Shown piece after piece: positions 26,659-34,192 of a stretch of 41,083 nt of DNA. The stretch is taken from positions 1-41,083 of the forward strand of contig JAHQVP010000210.1 of assembly GCA_019634275.1 (NCBI GenBank), in the 5' to 3' direction. The notes beneath the pieces are model-generated. The model did no database searches. It was not told the origin of the DNA and saw only the letters and a program-made list of their open reading frames with translations. The position numbers and the translations under genes are program-made. Source of the stretch: Saprospiraceae bacterium. Lineage in GTDB: Bacteria > Bacteroidota > Bacteroidia > Chitinophagales > Saprospiraceae. Numbering within the stretch: the stretch's first letter is position 1; each line of letters opens with the position of its first letter.

Positions 26659-27585
26659 ATGTATCGAATATTTTTTGTTTCCTATTTCATGGTGTGTTCA
26701 ATGGCCCTAGGGGCCCAAAATACAGCTGAACGGTTGGGATATGCGCGAGATGCCAAACTCCTAATTGTGCATGCAGATGATGCAGGCAGTGCCCAATCCG
26801 TTAATGCAGCCACTATATCTGCGCTGGAAGAGGGCATGGTCAGCTCTGCCAGTGTGATGGTGCCTTGCCCCTGGTTTCCCGACATTGCGCGGTATGCTGC
26901 CGCCCACGACGGACAACATGATTTGGGGATACATCTTACCGTCACCTGTGAGTGGGATTACTATAAGTGGGGGCCGGCAACAAACCATGACGTGTCGTCG
27001 CTGACAGATGAGAATGGCTATTTTTTTGCTGATTGTCAAAATTTCGGACTCAAAGCGGATCTAGCAGAAATCGAAACAGAACTGCGCGCCCAAATTGACA
27101 AAGCGATTGCTCACGGCTTAAAACCTACGCATATCGACAGCCATATGGGTTGCTTGTTCTTTACGCGACCTGAAGTATTCGGAATTTATCTTGAGTTGGC
27201 AGAGGAATATGGGGTTCCTGCACTGGTGAGCAAGAGCATGATGGCACTCGCACCTGATCTTTTAGGCCCATACATGGAGGCTGGAAAAATAGTAATCGAA
27301 GCGGAATACTCGGCGAGTCCGGAGAATTTTGACCAGAGCATGGCAGCCTTTTATAGTCAGACACTGCGCAACTTACAACCGGGACTTTCTACTATTATTA
27401 TTCACGTTGGGTATGACAATGACGAGCTCAGGGCTGTCTGTGAGAATCATCCTTACTGGGGGAGTGCATGGCGACAGGCAGACTACGATTACTTCACCAG
27501 TGACGAATGCCGCAATATTTTGAAGGAAGAAAAAATACACTTGGTTACCTGGCGACAGGTAGGAGAAGCCTTGAAGAAAAATTAA
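26659..27585 (+). CDS. secreted ChbG/YdjC-like carbohydrate deacetylase
   Basis: Signal peptide; LLIVHADDAGSAQSVN, LGIHLTVTCEW, PTHIDSHMGCLF. Confidence 0.88.
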   Translation: MYRIFFVSYFMVCSMALGAQNTAERLGYARDAKLLIVHADDAGSAQSVNAATISALEEGMVSSASVMVPCPWFPDIARYAAAHDGQHDLGIHLTVTCEWDYYKWGPATNHDVSSLTDENGYFFADCQNFGLKADLAEIETELRAQIDKAIAHGLKPTHIDSHMGCLFFTRPEVFGIYLELAEEYGVPALVSKSMMALAPDLLGPYMEAGKIVIEAEYSASPENFDQSMAAFYSQTLRNLQPGLSTIIIHVGYDNDELRAVCENHPYWGSAWRQADYDYFTSDECRNILKEEKIHLVTWRQVGEALKKN

Positions 27586-27590
27586 GCCCC

Positions 27591-29006
27591 ATGAAACGAC
27601 TTCCTTGTACTCTTTTGTTGGCATTGCTCACATGCATTCCATTATCTGCTCAAGAGGATGAGGATGCCGAACTCTTTCGGGTGATGGATGCCTGGCTCGA
27701 TGCACAGCAAGCATATGAGGCTTTGCCAGGCCTTTCTGTGGCGATTGTCAGGGACCAGGAGGTTGTGTATAGCAGGGCTTTTGGCTTATCCAATCCTGCC
27801 GAAGAAAAGGTTGCGACCACAGAGACCATTTACAGCATTTGTTCCATTTCAAAGCTTTTTACTGCGGTTGCCATCATGAAGTTATATGATGAAGGGAAAT
27901 TGCGTCTGGATGACGAAGTTGGAGATCTTTTGCCCTTTTATGATCTGGCTCAACAGTTTGAAGATAGTGGACCAGTAACCATAAGATCCCTAATGACTCA
28001 TTCGTCGGGCTTGCCCAGAGAGGCGGTCAATCCATATTGGACGGGGCCTGGATTTCCTTTTCCTACTCAGAGTGAAGTACACGCTGGGCTAGAAGAGCAG
28101 GAGACCTTATATCCAGCCAGCACCTACTTTCAGTACAGTAATTTGGGTCTGACACTTTTAGGTGAGATTGTCGAGCAGGTATCTGGCGTACCTTATGACG
28201 AGTACATCCATGCGCACATATTGGAGCCGCTCAAAATGGCCGATACGCGGACTACGATGCCTGATGATCTTCATGGCCAATCTCTTTCAGTTGGGCACTC
28301 CAGCATTACACGCAATGGAAGCCGTCAGCCCGTACCCCTCTTTCAAGCTAAAGGTGTTCGAGCCGCAGCTGGGTTTAGTTCGACCGTAATGGATCTCGCG
28401 GAATTTGCAAAGTGGCAGTTTAGGCTATTAGAAAATGGTGGTAAAGAGATATTGAAAGTGGCTACCCTCAAGAACATGCACCGTGTGCATTGGACCAACC
28501 CCGATTGGTCAACTACATGGGGATTGGGCTTCTCTGTGTACGAATCAGATGGCGCAACCATTGTTGGCCATGGAGGATCATGTCCCGGTTATCGTTCTAC
28601 GATTTCACTCAATCCCAGGGAAAAGACAGCCGTAATTGTGATGATAAATGCCAGTGGAACAGACCCAGGAAAATACGCCAAAGGCCTGGCTGGGCTCATG
28701 CGTGCATACGGAAATGCAGATTCGACCGCGGGACCAGATCTCGAGGAATATCGCATGACCTGCTCTCCTCAGCCCTGGTGGAGCGAGGAATACGTATTTC
28801 CCTGGAAGGGGAAGTTGGGCATGTTAGGACTGCCAAGCAATAACCCATCCCGGTTTAGTCTTTATAAGCACATCGAGGGGGATCTCTTTAAGAGATTGCG
28901 GAAGGATGATGAACTTGGTGAAGCAGTACGATTTCATAGGGATGCTCAAGGTAAAATCCAGTACTATGAGCAGCATGGCAACTTGACCCACCGCATAAAT
29001 AAGTGA
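27591..29006 (+). CDS. serine hydrolase, class C beta-lactamase family
   Basis: Signal peptide, SISK (SxxK), YSN (YxN), GHGGSCPG. Start trimmed from 27507. Confidence 0.92.
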   Translation: MKRLPCTLLLALLTCIPLSAQEDEDAELFRVMDAWLDAQQAYEALPGLSVAIVRDQEVVYSRAFGLSNPAEEKVATTETIYSICSISKLFTAVAIMKLYDEGKLRLDDEVGDLLPFYDLAQQFEDSGPVTIRSLMTHSSGLPREAVNPYWTGPGFPFPTQSEVHAGLEEQETLYPASTYFQYSNLGLTLLGEIVEQVSGVPYDEYIHAHILEPLKMADTRTTMPDDLHGQSLSVGHSSITRNGSRQPVPLFQAKGVRAAAGFSSTVMDLAEFAKWQFRLLENGGKEILKVATLKNMHRVHWTNPDWSTTWGLGFSVYESDGATIVGHGGSCPGYRSTISLNPREKTAVIVMINASGTDPGKYAKGLAGLMRAYGNADSTAGPDLEEYRMTCSPQPWWSEEYVFPWKGKLGMLGLPSNNPSRFSLYKHIEGDLFKRLRKDDELGEAVRFHRDAQGKIQYYEQHGNLTHRINK

Positions 29007-29140: not shown

Positions 29141-29214
29141 GCCTCCTTAGCTCAGCTGGTTAGAGCGGCGGACTGTTAATCCGTAGGTCCAAGGTTCAAG
29201 TCCTTTAGGGGGCG
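29141..29214 (+). tRNA. tRNA-Asn(GTT)
   Basis: Acceptor GCCTCCT/AGGGGGC, D arm GCTC/GAGC, anticodon arm GCGGA-CTGTTAA-TCCGT (GTT at 29175-29177), T loop TTCAAGT; CCA not encoded. Confidence 0.95.
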
Positions 29215-29221
29215 CATCGAG

Positions 29222-29249
29222 GCCTCGCACACTGTGCGAGGCTTCTTTT
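29222..29249 (+). terminator. intrinsic terminator after tRNA-Asn
   Basis: gcctcgcac-act-gtgcgaggc perfect 9-bp stem followed by TTCTTTT. Confidence 0.85.
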
Positions 29250-29349: not shown

Positions 29350-31218
29350 ATGAGGACTTTGTTATTTTTTATGGGCCTGGCAATGCTATTTGCATGCAGC
29401 CCATCTGATGCAGATCCAGGCAAGGTAGAAGAAAGGGTCCAGCCCGAGTCACTACCCATGCAGCAGTTGCTCCTGACAGACCTTCAGGACTTTAATAATC
29501 AGGATGGCAATTGGCAGATTGGGGGCACGGTACAGTGTGATCCGTTAGTGGAGCACAGTCTCGAAATGGGAGAAGGTGAGGGCATTCTGGTGAATGTGCC
29601 GACCGAGGACAAAAAATCCAATCTCGTATCCAATTGGGAGCATGGGGATCTGGAACTCAAGTTTGAGGTGATGGTGCCAAAGGGATCCAATTCGGGAGTG
29701 TACCTCCAGGGTCGATATGAAATACAGATTCTTGACAGTTGGGGTAAAGCAGAGGTAGGCTCGGGAGACCTGGGTGGCATTTACCAGCGCTGGGATGCGT
29801 CGCTTCCTGATGGAGAAAAAGGATATGAAGGTCATGCCCCTAAGACCAATGCTGCCCGGGCACCAGGATTGTGGCAGTCATGTCACCTTCTTTTTAAGGC
29901 TCCACGATTCAATGCGATGGGCGAAAAAATCAAGGATGCACAATTCGATTGGGTTTTTCTCAACGGACATAAGATCCATGGGCTGACGGTGTTAAGTGGT
30001 CCCACTCGGGGTGCCGCCTTTCCCGATGAAGGACCTCTGGGTCCATTGTTTATCCAGGGAGATCACGGACCAGTTGCCTTCCGCAACATTGCTTACAAAT
30101 CGTTTAATCAGGATACCCTGGTCCTCCAGGGACTTACGTACGAGTTCTTTCCTGGAGAGTGGGATTCACTGCCAGATTTTGCCACCCTTAGTGCTGAACG
30201 TGAGGGTTCAATTGATCGAATGGATTTGGAAGAAGCCAGCACCCAACCCGATCATTATGGAGTGGTCTTTTCTGGCAATCTGCAGGTCAAGACACCTGGA
30301 TCCTACTTATTTGAAATCGATGCCGATGATGGAGCATCACTGATGATCGATTCAACGGTGATCGTTTTGCGCGATGGCGATCCCACACGAGGACGGGCAC
30401 GCGGCATCATAGAACTGGAGAAAGGTGCTCATGCTTTTCAAATGAACTACTATCAAAAGGTTTGGGGCGCGGTTGTCCGGCTCTATTATGAAGGGCCTAG
30501 TATCGAAAAAAGACCGCTGGCCTCGGTCATTGAGGTGTCGCAATGGCAACGCAATATAGATGCCCAACCGATGGTCATGATCGAGTCAGTGGAGGATCCT
30601 ACCCTACTACGCGGATTTGTCCAACATGGTGATGAAAAACTCACACACGCCATCAGTGTCGGACATCCATCGGGCATACACTACAGTTACAATCTATTAA
30701 ATGGAACACTGGCCAGTAGCTGGAAGGGTCAATTTATCGATGTGACCAATATGTGGAGGGGTCGAGGCAATTCACAACTTGCCCTTCCCTTGAATGCTAC
30801 CATCGAGTTTTCGGGTCAATTGCCGATCGCCCGATTGTCCCATTCAGAGGCTGCTTGGCCGCTCTATCGACCCGATGATTTTCGATATCATGGTTACCAG
30901 ATGGGCGAGAATCAAATGCCCTCTTTTCAGTACGAAGCAAATGGACTCATGGTGCAGGATGAGATCATGCCGGTGGCGGAGGATGGGATGCTGCGTCGAT
31001 CACTGACATTTGAGACAGACGGCAGCAAAAACAACCTTTACTATAAACTTGACGAAGCGACTTCGATCGATTTAATGGAAGGGGGAATGTACAATATAGG
31101 GGGTAAGTACTACATCCTCAGCGACGTAGCACTAGAGATACGCGAATTGGAAAACCAAGATGAATTGGTCGTCTCTTTGGCGGAATTAGACAACTTTAGC
31201 TATTCGATCTTATGGTGA
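29350..31218 (+). CDS. lipoprotein with DUF1080 (3-keto-disaccharide hydrolase-like) and PA14 domains plus an unassigned C-terminal region
   Basis: Lipobox MLFACSPS; DLELKFEVMVPKGSNSGVYLQGRYEIQILDSWG (DUF1080); YLFEIDADDGASLMIDSTVIVLRDG...GAHAFQMNYYQKVWGAVVRLYYEGP (PA14). Confidence 0.87.
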   Translation: MRTLLFFMGLAMLFACSPSDADPGKVEERVQPESLPMQQLLLTDLQDFNNQDGNWQIGGTVQCDPLVEHSLEMGEGEGILVNVPTEDKKSNLVSNWEHGDLELKFEVMVPKGSNSGVYLQGRYEIQILDSWGKAEVGSGDLGGIYQRWDASLPDGEKGYEGHAPKTNAARAPGLWQSCHLLFKAPRFNAMGEKIKDAQFDWVFLNGHKIHGLTVLSGPTRGAAFPDEGPLGPLFIQGDHGPVAFRNIAYKSFNQDTLVLQGLTYEFFPGEWDSLPDFATLSAEREGSIDRMDLEEASTQPDHYGVVFSGNLQVKTPGSYLFEIDADDGASLMIDSTVIVLRDGDPTRGRARGIIELEKGAHAFQMNYYQKVWGAVVRLYYEGPSIEKRPLASVIEVSQWQRNIDAQPMVMIESVEDPTLLRGFVQHGDEKLTHAISVGHPSGIHYSYNLLNGTLASSWKGQFIDVTNMWRGRGNSQLALPLNATIEFSGQLPIARLSHSEAAWPLYRPDDFRYHGYQMGENQMPSFQYEANGLMVQDEIMPVAEDGMLRRSLTFETDGSKNNLYYKLDEATSIDLMEGGMYNIGGKYYILSDVALEIRELENQDELVVSLAELDNFSYSILW

Positions 31219-33170
31219 ACTTGATTAAATATGTGGCAGTGACCTGCTGCTGTGTGGTGGGGACCTTGGATGCCCAAGTGGCACGAGGATTAGCAGAGTC
31301 CGATTATTACAAGATCGAATCCGTCCCCATACCTGAGAACGTCATCTTGGAGGTAGGAGGCTTGGCCTTCGACGACAAAGGACGACTAGGTGTGTCCACT
31401 CGACGAGGCGAAGTTTGGTTGATAACCAACCCATCTTCTGCTCAACCCGATTTTCAACGTTATGCGCATGGACTCCACGAACCGCTTGGGCTTGCCTTTA
31501 CAAATGGCCGATTCTATACTGCTCAGCGAGGGGAGCTGACCCGACTTAATGATAGGGATGGCGATGACGTAGCCGATGAGTACTACAACATTCGCGACTG
31601 GGATCTCAATGGCAACTATCATGAATATTCCTATGGGCCTGTACTGCTTCCAGACGGAGACATGTTGATTACCCTCAACCTGGGTTGGGTCGGGCGTGGC
31701 GCCAGTGAATCAAAGTGGAGAGGCTGGATGATGAAACTTACCCCGGAAGGAGAAATGACTCCCATAGCCACTGGTATGAGATCACCAGCAGGTTTTGGAT
31801 TAAACGCCAAGGGAGACATATTCTATACGGAAAACCAAGGGGATTGGGTGGGTTCCGGACGGATGACTCACATAGAGAAGGGAGATTTTGCTGGACATCC
31901 CGAAGGCTTGAAGTGGAGTGGAGAACCCGGTTCTCCCCTCAATTTGAGGATGGAAGATATTGACGATAGTGATGGACTATCCCTATATCAGTATCAGGAA
32001 AAATTCGATGCAGTGAAGCCTCCCTCTGTTTGGTTTCCTCATACCCTGATGGGCATCAGCACGAGCGATATAGCCGTCATTCCAGATGGTTTTGGCCCTT
32101 TCAACGATCAATTGCTGGTGGGAGATCAAGGCCATAGCAAAGTCATGCGGGTATACCAGGAAAAAGTAAACGGGGTCTATCAAGGGATATGCTACCCCTT
32201 CGTGGAAGGGTTTGCATCTGGAATCTTGCGTTTGGAGTGGTCAGACGACAAAACACTCTATGTGGGTATGACCAATCGTGGATGGGCTTCTACCGGTAAG
32301 GATAAGTTTGGCTTGCAAAAGCTCACCTGGACCGGTGTAGTGCCTTTTGAGGTACTGCAGGTAAATGCGGAGAGCGATGGGTTTAGGGTCTCCTTTACAA
32401 AAGAAGTTGACCGGCGTACAGCAGCCAATCCGGAGTCATACCTAATCAATGATTTTACTTATCAGTATCATCATCTCTACGGAAGTCCGGTGGTGGATCA
32501 GCAAGAAAGGACGGTGTATAAGGTGGAAGTAGCACAAGACAACCGATCCGCTCGTCTTTTTGTCGAGGGAATGAGACCAGGATATATTTATGAAATTAAT
32601 GCGGATGGAGTGCGCAGTGCTGTTTCTGAGCAGCTGGTGCATCCCACTGGATACTTCACGCTCAATGCGATTCCTGGAGATCACGTACACCACCAGCACG
32701 ATATGTCCGCCACTAGCGTGTTTTCCGCTCCAGATATCATTTCGGCCAAGCGCGTGACCGAAATGCCTGGAAGTTGGCTGGACGGACCGGATGAGACCAT
32801 CACGGTGGGAACAATACCCGGAATGAAGTTTGATCAAACCGAAATTAGGGTACGGGCAGGGAGTAAGGTTAAACTCATTTTCAACAATCCCGACGACATG
32901 ATGCACAATCTGGTCATTATCAAGCCGGAGAAAGAAGCATCAGTAGCCGATGCCGCCAATCGCATGGGGCTGCAGGGACAAGAAAAGGGATACATCCCAG
33001 ATTCTGAACATATTGTCGCCCATACCAATCTCCTAGAACCCAATGAATCTGACATCATCTATCTGACCATCCCAGAAGAGCCAGGTACATACAGCATCCT
33101 ATGTACTTTTCCAGGACATGCGGCAAGTATGCGGGCAGATCTCATTGTAGCCGACACACCATCGAATTAA
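31212..33170 (+). CDS. sorbosone-dehydrogenase-like beta-propeller protein with C-terminal azurin/plastocyanin-type copper domain
   Basis: GLAFDDKGRLGVSTRRGEVWLI...PDGDMLITLNLGW...GDIFYTENQGDWVGSG; C-terminus DDMMHNLVI...YSILCTFPGHAASM (Cys-x4-His-x3-Met as in blue copper proteins). ATG overlaps previous stop (ATGGTGA). Confidence 0.88.
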   Translation: MVNLIKYVAVTCCCVVGTLDAQVARGLAESDYYKIESVPIPENVILEVGGLAFDDKGRLGVSTRRGEVWLITNPSSAQPDFQRYAHGLHEPLGLAFTNGRFYTAQRGELTRLNDRDGDDVADEYYNIRDWDLNGNYHEYSYGPVLLPDGDMLITLNLGWVGRGASESKWRGWMMKLTPEGEMTPIATGMRSPAGFGLNAKGDIFYTENQGDWVGSGRMTHIEKGDFAGHPEGLKWSGEPGSPLNLRMEDIDDSDGLSLYQYQEKFDAVKPPSVWFPHTLMGISTSDIAVIPDGFGPFNDQLLVGDQGHSKVMRVYQEKVNGVYQGICYPFVEGFASGILRLEWSDDKTLYVGMTNRGWASTGKDKFGLQKLTWTGVVPFEVLQVNAESDGFRVSFTKEVDRRTAANPESYLINDFTYQYHHLYGSPVVDQQERTVYKVEVAQDNRSARLFVEGMRPGYIYEINADGVRSAVSEQLVHPTGYFTLNAIPGDHVHHQHDMSATSVFSAPDIISAKRVTEMPGSWLDGPDETITVGTIPGMKFDQTEIRVRAGSKVKLIFNNPDDMMHNLVIIKPEKEASVADAANRMGLQGQEKGYIPDSEHIVAHTNLLEPNESDIIYLTIPEEPGTYSILCTFPGHAASMRADLIVADTPSN

Positions 33171-33172
33171 AT

Positions 33173-33196
33173 ATGCCATAATGGCATGATTTTTTT
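33173..33196 (+). terminator. intrinsic terminator after the propeller-azurin gene
   Basis: atgccat-a-atggcat inverted repeat followed by gaTTTTTTT. Confidence 0.6.
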
Positions 33197-33237: not shown

Positions 33238-33317
33238 GGCCATCCTGGCGCAGATAACCTGCTGGCATGGCGATTGATTCAGCATGATCAACTACGTAAA
33301 TCAAAAAGTAATTGAAA

Positions 33318-33713
33318 ATGCTATCAACACGAGTAAAAAGAGCTCCCTCCAATGGCCATCTTGCACAACGAAACCATCTTCGACGTCGAACTCCTGTTCA
33401 ACACAACATTACAGAAGACCAGAAAGTATTTGCGGTTTCCTTCGCTGTTCCGGGGTTTTCCAAGGAGGATTTTTCGATAGAGCTAGAGGACGATAAGCTG
33501 CGAGTAGAATTCTCTAAACCAGAGCCTTCTGATGATCCTTCCTATCTAGCAAAAGGATTTGATTTTCAAGATTTTACAAGAACCTTTACCCTGCGATCTC
33601 GGGACATTGACGCAGAGAACATCAAGGCTGAATATCAGCAGGGAATTCTGAAAGTGATCTTGCCCAAATCGGAAGCGGGCTTAAATCCTGTCAAGACCAT
33701 CAGCGTAGATTAA
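33318..33713 (+). CDS. Hsp20/alpha-crystallin family protein
   Basis: VFAVSFAVPGFSKEDFSIELEDDKLRVEF...FTRTFTLRSRDIDAENIKAEYQQGILKVILPK. Confidence 0.9.
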   Translation: MLSTRVKRAPSNGHLAQRNHLRRRTPVQHNITEDQKVFAVSFAVPGFSKEDFSIELEDDKLRVEFSKPEPSDDPSYLAKGFDFQDFTRTFTLRSRDIDAENIKAEYQQGILKVILPKSEAGLNPVKTISVD

Positions 33714-33754
33714 GATTTTCTTAACTCAAGTACATCAAATTAAAAGATCGTAAT

Positions 33755-34192
33755 ATGAACTATATAAAATTCAATCCGTTTTTACCCTTACAAGAGGGCG
33801 TCGACGAATTGGTACAGTCCATCTTTAACAGCAGCGTTGGGGACTTTGTCGGGTCAGACTTCGTGAGCAGTCATCCAAAAGCAAATGTCCGAGAGAGTGA
33901 AAATGGCTGGCTGGTAGAGTTGGCGGCGCCGGGATTGAGTAAAGACTCTTTCCATATCAAGATTGAAAATAGCATGTTGATCGTCACCGCAGAGCGAAGT
34001 GAGAAACGAGAGAAGGAGCAAGAGGGATACTTCCGAAAGGAATTTGATTTTGCCGGCTTGAAACGTTCCTTTCCACTGAAGGATGAAGTAGATCAAGAAA
34101 AAATAACAGCCAGCTACCAAGATGGTGTGCTGGCCATCCATCTCCCCAAGATGGACAATCAGGATCGGCGTAAGACGATTGTGGTTGAGTAA
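33755..34192 (+). CDS. Hsp20/alpha-crystallin family protein
   Basis: WLVELAAPGLSKDSFHIKIENSMLIVTAE...FKRSFPLKDEVDQEKITASYQDGVLAIHLPK-type alpha-crystallin domain. Confidence 0.95.
   Translation: MNYIKFNPFLPLQEGVDELVQSIFNSSVGDFVGSDFVSSHPKANVRESENGWLVELAAPGLSKDSFHIKIENSMLIVTAERSEKREKEQEGYFRKEFDFAGLKRSFPLKDEVDQEKITASYQDGVLAIHLPKMDNQDRRKTIVVE

Follow-up and report, generated by a model that had tools for sequence, protein, structure and literature searches.

What does a secreted protein that joins a sugar-dehydrogenase-like propeller to a copper domain oxidise, and what is the role of the putative 3-keto-glycoside-cleaving lipoprotein encoded directly upstream of it? The question is raised by two adjacent genes, here called A and B, in a stretch of 41,083 nucleotides from a Saprospiraceae bacterium (GenBank assembly GCA_019634275.1, contig JAHQVP010000210.1, positions 1 to 41,083; hereafter the window), which is contig C190 of a draft genome of 4.29 Mb in 368 contigs (G000). 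Gene A (29350..31218; like all features given below, on the forward strand) encodes a predicted secreted lipoprotein of 622 residues with a DUF1080, a PA14 and a further C-terminal domain, and gene B (31212..33170) a predicted secreted six-bladed-propeller/cupredoxin protein of 652 residues. An earlier note on this DNA, made from its letters only, had proposed that B oxidises glycosides and A cleaves the 3-keto products at the cell surface; direct reading confirmed that both are intact open reading frames (ORFs) at the positions it had assigned, with the domains and the gene overlap it described. Our analysis suggests that A and B quite probably belong to a redox complex that is exported and acts on glycans. 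Oxidation followed by cleavage is the best full explanation of the pair, although we give it, taken whole, slightly less than an even chance of being right.

Results

The pairing of A and B is real and far beyond chance. Among 60 relatives and the genome itself (61 in total, counting full-length B orthologs only), A lies directly upstream of B on the same strand at all 27 assessable loci, and a genome scan places the arrangement in named genera that include Cyclobacterium, Lunatimonas and Algoriphagus. A sample of 297 genomes from the phylum (B loci counted at E<1e-200, counts read from tables) contains 36 B loci, 35 of them with an adjoining A, one of which is partial; the exception (G247) has an orphan B and an orphan A on separate contigs. 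The two genes are thus conserved together, a point on which the earlier note had made its proposal depend. In Cyclobacteriaceae, 25 of the 45 genes flanking the pair (loci L081-L091) encode sulfatases, hinting at sulfated glycans as the target in that family.

Protein B carries a signal peptide, and its propeller (residues 30-490; 31299..32681), a weak match to DUF7133, resembles pyrroloquinoline quinone (PQQ)-dependent sugar dehydrogenases in Foldseek and hhalign. An AlphaFold2 model built from 28 orthologs (predicted local distance difference test score, pLDDT, 88) retrieved PQQ-type sugar dehydrogenases as its nine best Foldseek hits (E 5e-14 to 1e-10), with other propellers trailing at ~1e-9; the best folds include 2ISM, 7CGZ/7CDY, 3DAS, 6JT5 (CcPDH), 3A9G, 1CQ1 and 1C9U. 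Profile-profile comparison by hhalign matched B to the Saprospiraceae PF07995 enzymes (97.4%, E 1.5e-11), and a second, mostly redox-free B profile gave 96.6% (E 6.6e-10). PF07995 itself is not matched by B and only weakly by three of the 28 orthologs, and NCBIfam returned nothing but sub-cut-off matches for B, TIGR02604 lying far below its cut-off. Membership of CAZy family AA12 was rejected, as neither B nor any of 21 relatives' genomes contains a PF22807 match. A search of a redox-free propeller profile against PDB sequences yielded mainly short propeller-repeat matches (designed Pizza proteins) and was uninformative, and Foldseek and hhalign were used instead.

In the first of these hhalign alignments, with the PF07995 enzymes, read by eye from the printed output with the published PQQ contacts as reference (PMC6881789, PMC6881810), R190 of B corresponds to Arg228 of soluble glucose dehydrogenase (sGDH), Q209-G210-D211 to the Ca loop and R340 to the last PQQ-binding Arg. 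R190, S191, N208, Q209, G210 and H277 are invariant in the 28 B orthologs, as is H137 (in YHEY; codon 31620..31622), which falls no more than one residue away from the column of the catalytic His in the GSDH enzymes. The earlier note's oxidative propeller is supported by fold, by profile and by the electron-transfer domain that the protein carries.

This electron-transfer domain is an auracyanin/azurin-like cupredoxin (32787..33155; Pfam and PDB matches) that scores 39.5 bits with PF00127 Copper-bind over residues 535-646 (cut-off 21.2) and has all four type-1 Cu ligands, His565, Cys631, His636 and Met640. Its place in the architecture is not fixed. Four B orthologs (L090, L098, L104, L106) have a CxxCH cytochrome c instead, and at seven loci (L092 of Verrucomicrobium, L108 and L174-L178) the downstream gene encodes just the propeller, the cupredoxin being part of the upstream, A-like protein, which shares the A-type C-terminal domain. 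In at least 13 Saprospiraceae-family genomes (13 of the 14 loci examined), propeller motifs and a canonical DUF1080 (HPD..LYD) occur on a single chain, and a CxxCH motif was seen in 10 of these relatives. The two chains examined in full (1227 and 1237 residues) run cytochrome c - PA14 - propeller - DUF1080 and have an N-terminal domain related to the C-terminal domain of A (hhalign 90%, E 1.6e-6). Domain swaps and fusions are a classical sign of parts that work together, and therefore point to a redox complex acting on glycans.

Proteins with cytochrome c, PA14, propeller and canonical DUF1080 in one chain were noted at L030, L031, L033-L043, L109 and L110 (~1230 residues in the last two), and these homologs lend themselves better to a test than the pair in the window. 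Elsewhere in the genome of the window, L111 (C318) and L112 (C251) encode propeller-cytochrome c fusions that lack DUF1080, and L113 (C184) a further protein with this kind of cupredoxin domain. Four Saprospiraceae PF07995 sugar dehydrogenases (L118, L119, L120, L131) have an N-terminal cytochrome c, in a family in which no PqqE was found.

The DUF1080 domain of A (PF06439, 3-keto-disaccharide hydrolase; residues 77-248; 29578..30093) scores 84.4 bits against a cut-off of 26.8 and belongs to a branch whose nearest structure, 4QHZ (BDI_3914), is uncharacterised; more distant are 3OSD (BT2157), 8V31 (a 3-keto-2-hydroxy-glucal hydratase) and 9FBE (a 3-keto-glycoside eliminase/hydratase with ligand). 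Over 226 aligned residues 9FBE equals BT2157 except for QDHG -> QDNG, and from this sole change we infer that the His is a catalytic residue, replaced so that the ligand would be trapped. Its counterpart in A, His239 (QGDHG; codon 30064..30066), is retained in 24 of 26 A orthologs, and the set E124/Q126/D129 plus H239 in 24-25 of them. The literature describes an overlap between DUF1080 and CBM66, a family of binding modules (PMC5673643), and lists the DUF1080 member THTE_1561 as an endo-xanthanase/lichenase (PMC9007349). The genome of the window holds 18 DUF1080 matches, with three proteins having two each, and the domain of A is among the lowest-scoring of those that are full length.

Downstream of DUF1080, A contains a PA14 domain of the carbohydrate-binding type (residues 273-388; 30166..30513; Pfam match 34 bits) and a third conserved domain of ~210 residues (residues ~412-622; 30583..31215), which had been missed before. 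A few members of this C-terminal domain match DUF6797 weakly, and NCBIfam has no named family for A. Because the domain is found in every two-gene version, even those without DUF1080 or PA14, it is the likely docking partner of the propeller. At its N-terminus A has a lipobox (LFAC, residues 13-16, with Cys16; 29386..29397). A lipoprotein signal was found in only nine of the 26 A orthologs, which does not support the cell-surface location put forward earlier.

The two genes form a unit bounded on both sides by terminator-like hairpins: on direct reading, a 12-pair, intrinsic-terminator-like hairpin (29219..29245) lies between A and the upstream tRNA-Asn(gtt) (29141..29215; ARAGORN), which is outside the unit, and a hairpin with a T-run (33172..33188) follows directly 3' of B. 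The predicted start of B overlaps the stop of A by 7 nt (ATGGTGA, 31212..31218), and translation of the two may be coupled here. The ATG at 31212 is the sole in-frame ATG near the start of B, but GTG at 31215 or TTG at 31221 would also yield a signal peptide, so that the exact overlap is a prediction. With start codons chosen heuristically, the 27 loci show A-to-B distances between -7 and about +148 nt, and the 7-nt overlap occurs at only three of them (the window, L079 and L099), for which reason we reject the inference that it implies stoichiometric production. Its ATG combines the final base of one codon with the TGG that follows, which encodes a conserved C-terminal Trp of A (..tta TGG tga). 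Across the family the overlap has not been selected for; it carries little information and implies no fixed stoichiometry.

Beyond the pair, no conserved neighbours were found in Saprospiraceae (the top family reached 4 of 79), and the genes around the pair in the window have no relation to it. The scanned window ORFs include no GMC oxidoreductase, the flavin type of sugar 3-dehydrogenase that adjoins the DUF1080 gene in LacABC-type loci; two GFO/IDH/MocA genes lie 16 kb from the pair. Upstream, at 26659-29006, a YdjC-like gene overlaps a listed beta-lactamase-family ORF, whose true start is probably a signal-peptide Met further downstream, and two adjacent HSP20 small heat-shock genes (33312-34192) lie immediately downstream of the pair.

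Discussion

We propose that A and B assemble as two subunits into an exported redox complex that breaks down glycans (Results). In it, the propeller of B would use PQQ, or a cofactor resembling it, to dehydrogenate a hydroxyl group of a sugar and would hand the electrons to its own cupredoxin, the DUF6797-like domain of A would serve as docking or core partner of the propeller, PA14 would bind the glycan, and DUF1080 would split the oxidised (3-keto) glycoside in an elimination/hydration reaction. The propeller/cupredoxin protein would thereby replace the usual LacABC dehydrogenase of the 3-keto-glycoside pathway. The individual parts of this proposal deserve different degrees of trust: we consider it likely that the two proteins form an exported complex with a redox function on glycans, whereas the 3-keto cleavage step by A is a tentative assignment that falls a little short of an even call.

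Several observations weigh against the proposal. The known propeller sugar dehydrogenases act at C1, not C3, and the known oxidation at C3 is the work of flavin or NAD enzymes. The position of sGDH Asn229 is taken by Ser191 in B, no counterpart of sGDH Lys377 was seen there, and H137 is an ambiguous match, being one residue off the catalytic-His column (H144 in sGDH, H363 in CcPDH) and replaced by Ala in the distant homologs L174 and L175. PqqE is absent as well: none of the 61 genomes reaches the TIGR02109 cut-off, the matches being of radical-SAM type and below it, so that PQQ would be imported from outside or another cofactor used. As for A, its DUF1080 has DSWGKAEVGSGDLGGIYQ in place of the HPDA..R.A..LYD signature of BT2157 and 8V31. 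The domain is degenerate and has lost the key His in L097 (G015) and L102 (G007), where propeller and cupredoxin are intact, and it is absent from seven two-gene relatives. DUF1080 is thus not an obligatory partner of the propeller and, since the signature is missing too, the sequence of the A domain suggests either an enzyme that cleaves 3-keto-glycosides with a changed specificity or a domain that serves partly for binding. The catalytic residues by which the earlier note would have judged its model are therefore present in part, the key His being kept in all but two orthologs and the HPDA/RAG/LYD elements lost. Oxidation coupled to 3-keto-glycoside cleavage gains from the pairing, the PQQ-type propeller, the key His and the fusions, and its doubtful elements are oxidation at C3, PQQ as the cofactor, a disaccharide as the substrate and the location at the cell surface.

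Some of these points lend substance to the idea that the pair is a respiratory aldose dehydrogenase complex, in which B would oxidise reducing-end C1 to lactones and pass electrons through the cupredoxin, and the DUF1080 and PA14 of A would bind carbohydrate with no lyase activity. The closest folds (2ISM, 3DAS, 1CQ1) are C1-oxidising PQQ-type enzymes, DUF1080 and CBM66 overlap (PMC5673643), and the losses of DUF1080 and of its signature described above would be unsurprising in a binding module. The retention of the key His with the E124/Q126/D129 motif in nearly all orthologs and the full canonical signature in the DUF1080 of the single-chain relatives argue for an enzyme, and we regard this alternative as doubtful.

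It is improbable, in our estimation, that the propeller is itself a glycosidase with a regulatory or structural redox domain. This possibility derives from Lac161_ORF7, a TIGR02604 propeller-HEAT-cytochrome c protein which, when purified, is reported to free glucose from lactose, and whose cosmid was functional in S. meliloti but not in E. coli (PMC5342196); it is the only biochemical result that we found near the family of B, which matches TIGR02604 weakly. Since glucose release alone was measured in that study, hydrolysis and oxidation-elimination are not distinguished by it, and the result also fits oxidation followed by cleavage, in favour of which we count it as an activity of a cytochrome c-bearing relative of B. 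No hydrolase-type fold heads the Foldseek list, and a redox domain that can be either cupredoxin or cytochrome c implies electron transfer. We think it similarly improbable that the pair is no sugar enzyme at all, B oxidising a non-glycan alcohol or the two forming a non-catalytic copper-handling or binding scaffold, for although the PQQ-site residues are conserved only in part, PqqE is missing and hedgehog-interacting protein is a non-enzyme of the same propeller family, the DUF1080 and PA14 domains, the DUF1080-fused relatives and the sulfatase neighbourhoods of Cyclobacteriaceae indicate glycans.

The proposed oxidation and cleavage by A and B resemble several known systems without coinciding with any of them, differing from the LacABC/DUF1080 route in the oxidation module and from AA12 in the copper/cytochrome outlet and the DUF1080 partner. 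Lactose use in Caulobacter needs a DUF1080 protein and a sugar 3-dehydrogenase, and the LacABC/glucoside 3-dehydrogenase pathway pairs an exported oxidation step with a DUF1080 protein (Caulobacter CCNA_01705, Bacteroides BT2157) for which cleavage of a 3-keto-glycoside has been proposed (PMC9007349). There, oxidation is carried out by the membrane-bound, multi-subunit LacABC, whereas here it would fall to a propeller and cupredoxin; no LacABC-type dehydrogenase is encoded beside A and B, and the DUF1080 of A comes from a different branch and is joined to PA14 and the DUF6797-like domain. With the eliminase/hydratase structures 9FBE and 8V31 A shares the PF06439 fold and the key His, but not HPDA/RAG/LYD. 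CcPDH of Coprinopsis cinerea (CAZy AA12-AA8) likewise combines a six-bladed PQQ-type propeller, an electron-transfer domain and a carbohydrate-binding module (PMC6881789), with heme b in place of type-1 copper or cytochrome c and no DUF1080 partner. The bacterial PQQ aldose/glucose dehydrogenases of PF07995 (sGDH, Asd) are the best structural and significant profile-profile matches to B, which differs from them in having no PF07995 match above cut-off, the Ser for Asn229, the fused cupredoxin and the near-obligate upstream partner. The PVC-type (Planctomycetes-Verrucomicrobia-Chlamydiae) TIGR02604/DUF7133 proteins exemplified by Lac161_ORF7 also join a related propeller to a redox domain, but with HEAT repeats and cytochrome c, and no A-type partner was described there.

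A bolder version of our proposal, which we consider unlikely though conceivable, would see in A and B a machine that is widespread in Bacteroidota. Its propeller, a quinoprotein representing a new class of sugar 3-dehydrogenase, would attack glycans at C3 and pass the electrons on to an exchangeable carrier, either cupredoxin or cytochrome c, and a DUF1080 of the same complex (in many Saprospiraceae of the same chain) would eliminate the oxidised glycosidic bond, all in one particle. If oxidation and cleavage are indeed coupled as we propose, the 3-keto-glycoside route would gain a further oxidation module, consisting of a propeller with cupredoxin or cytochrome c, and glycan depolymerisation outside the cytoplasm would be tied directly to the respiratory chain. 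The uncharacterised DUF7133 and DUF6797 would be assigned a role, and the lactose-cleaving propeller-cytochrome protein Lac161_ORF7 would be open to an alternative reading. The single-chain enzymes would then allow the whole idea to be tested on one purified protein.

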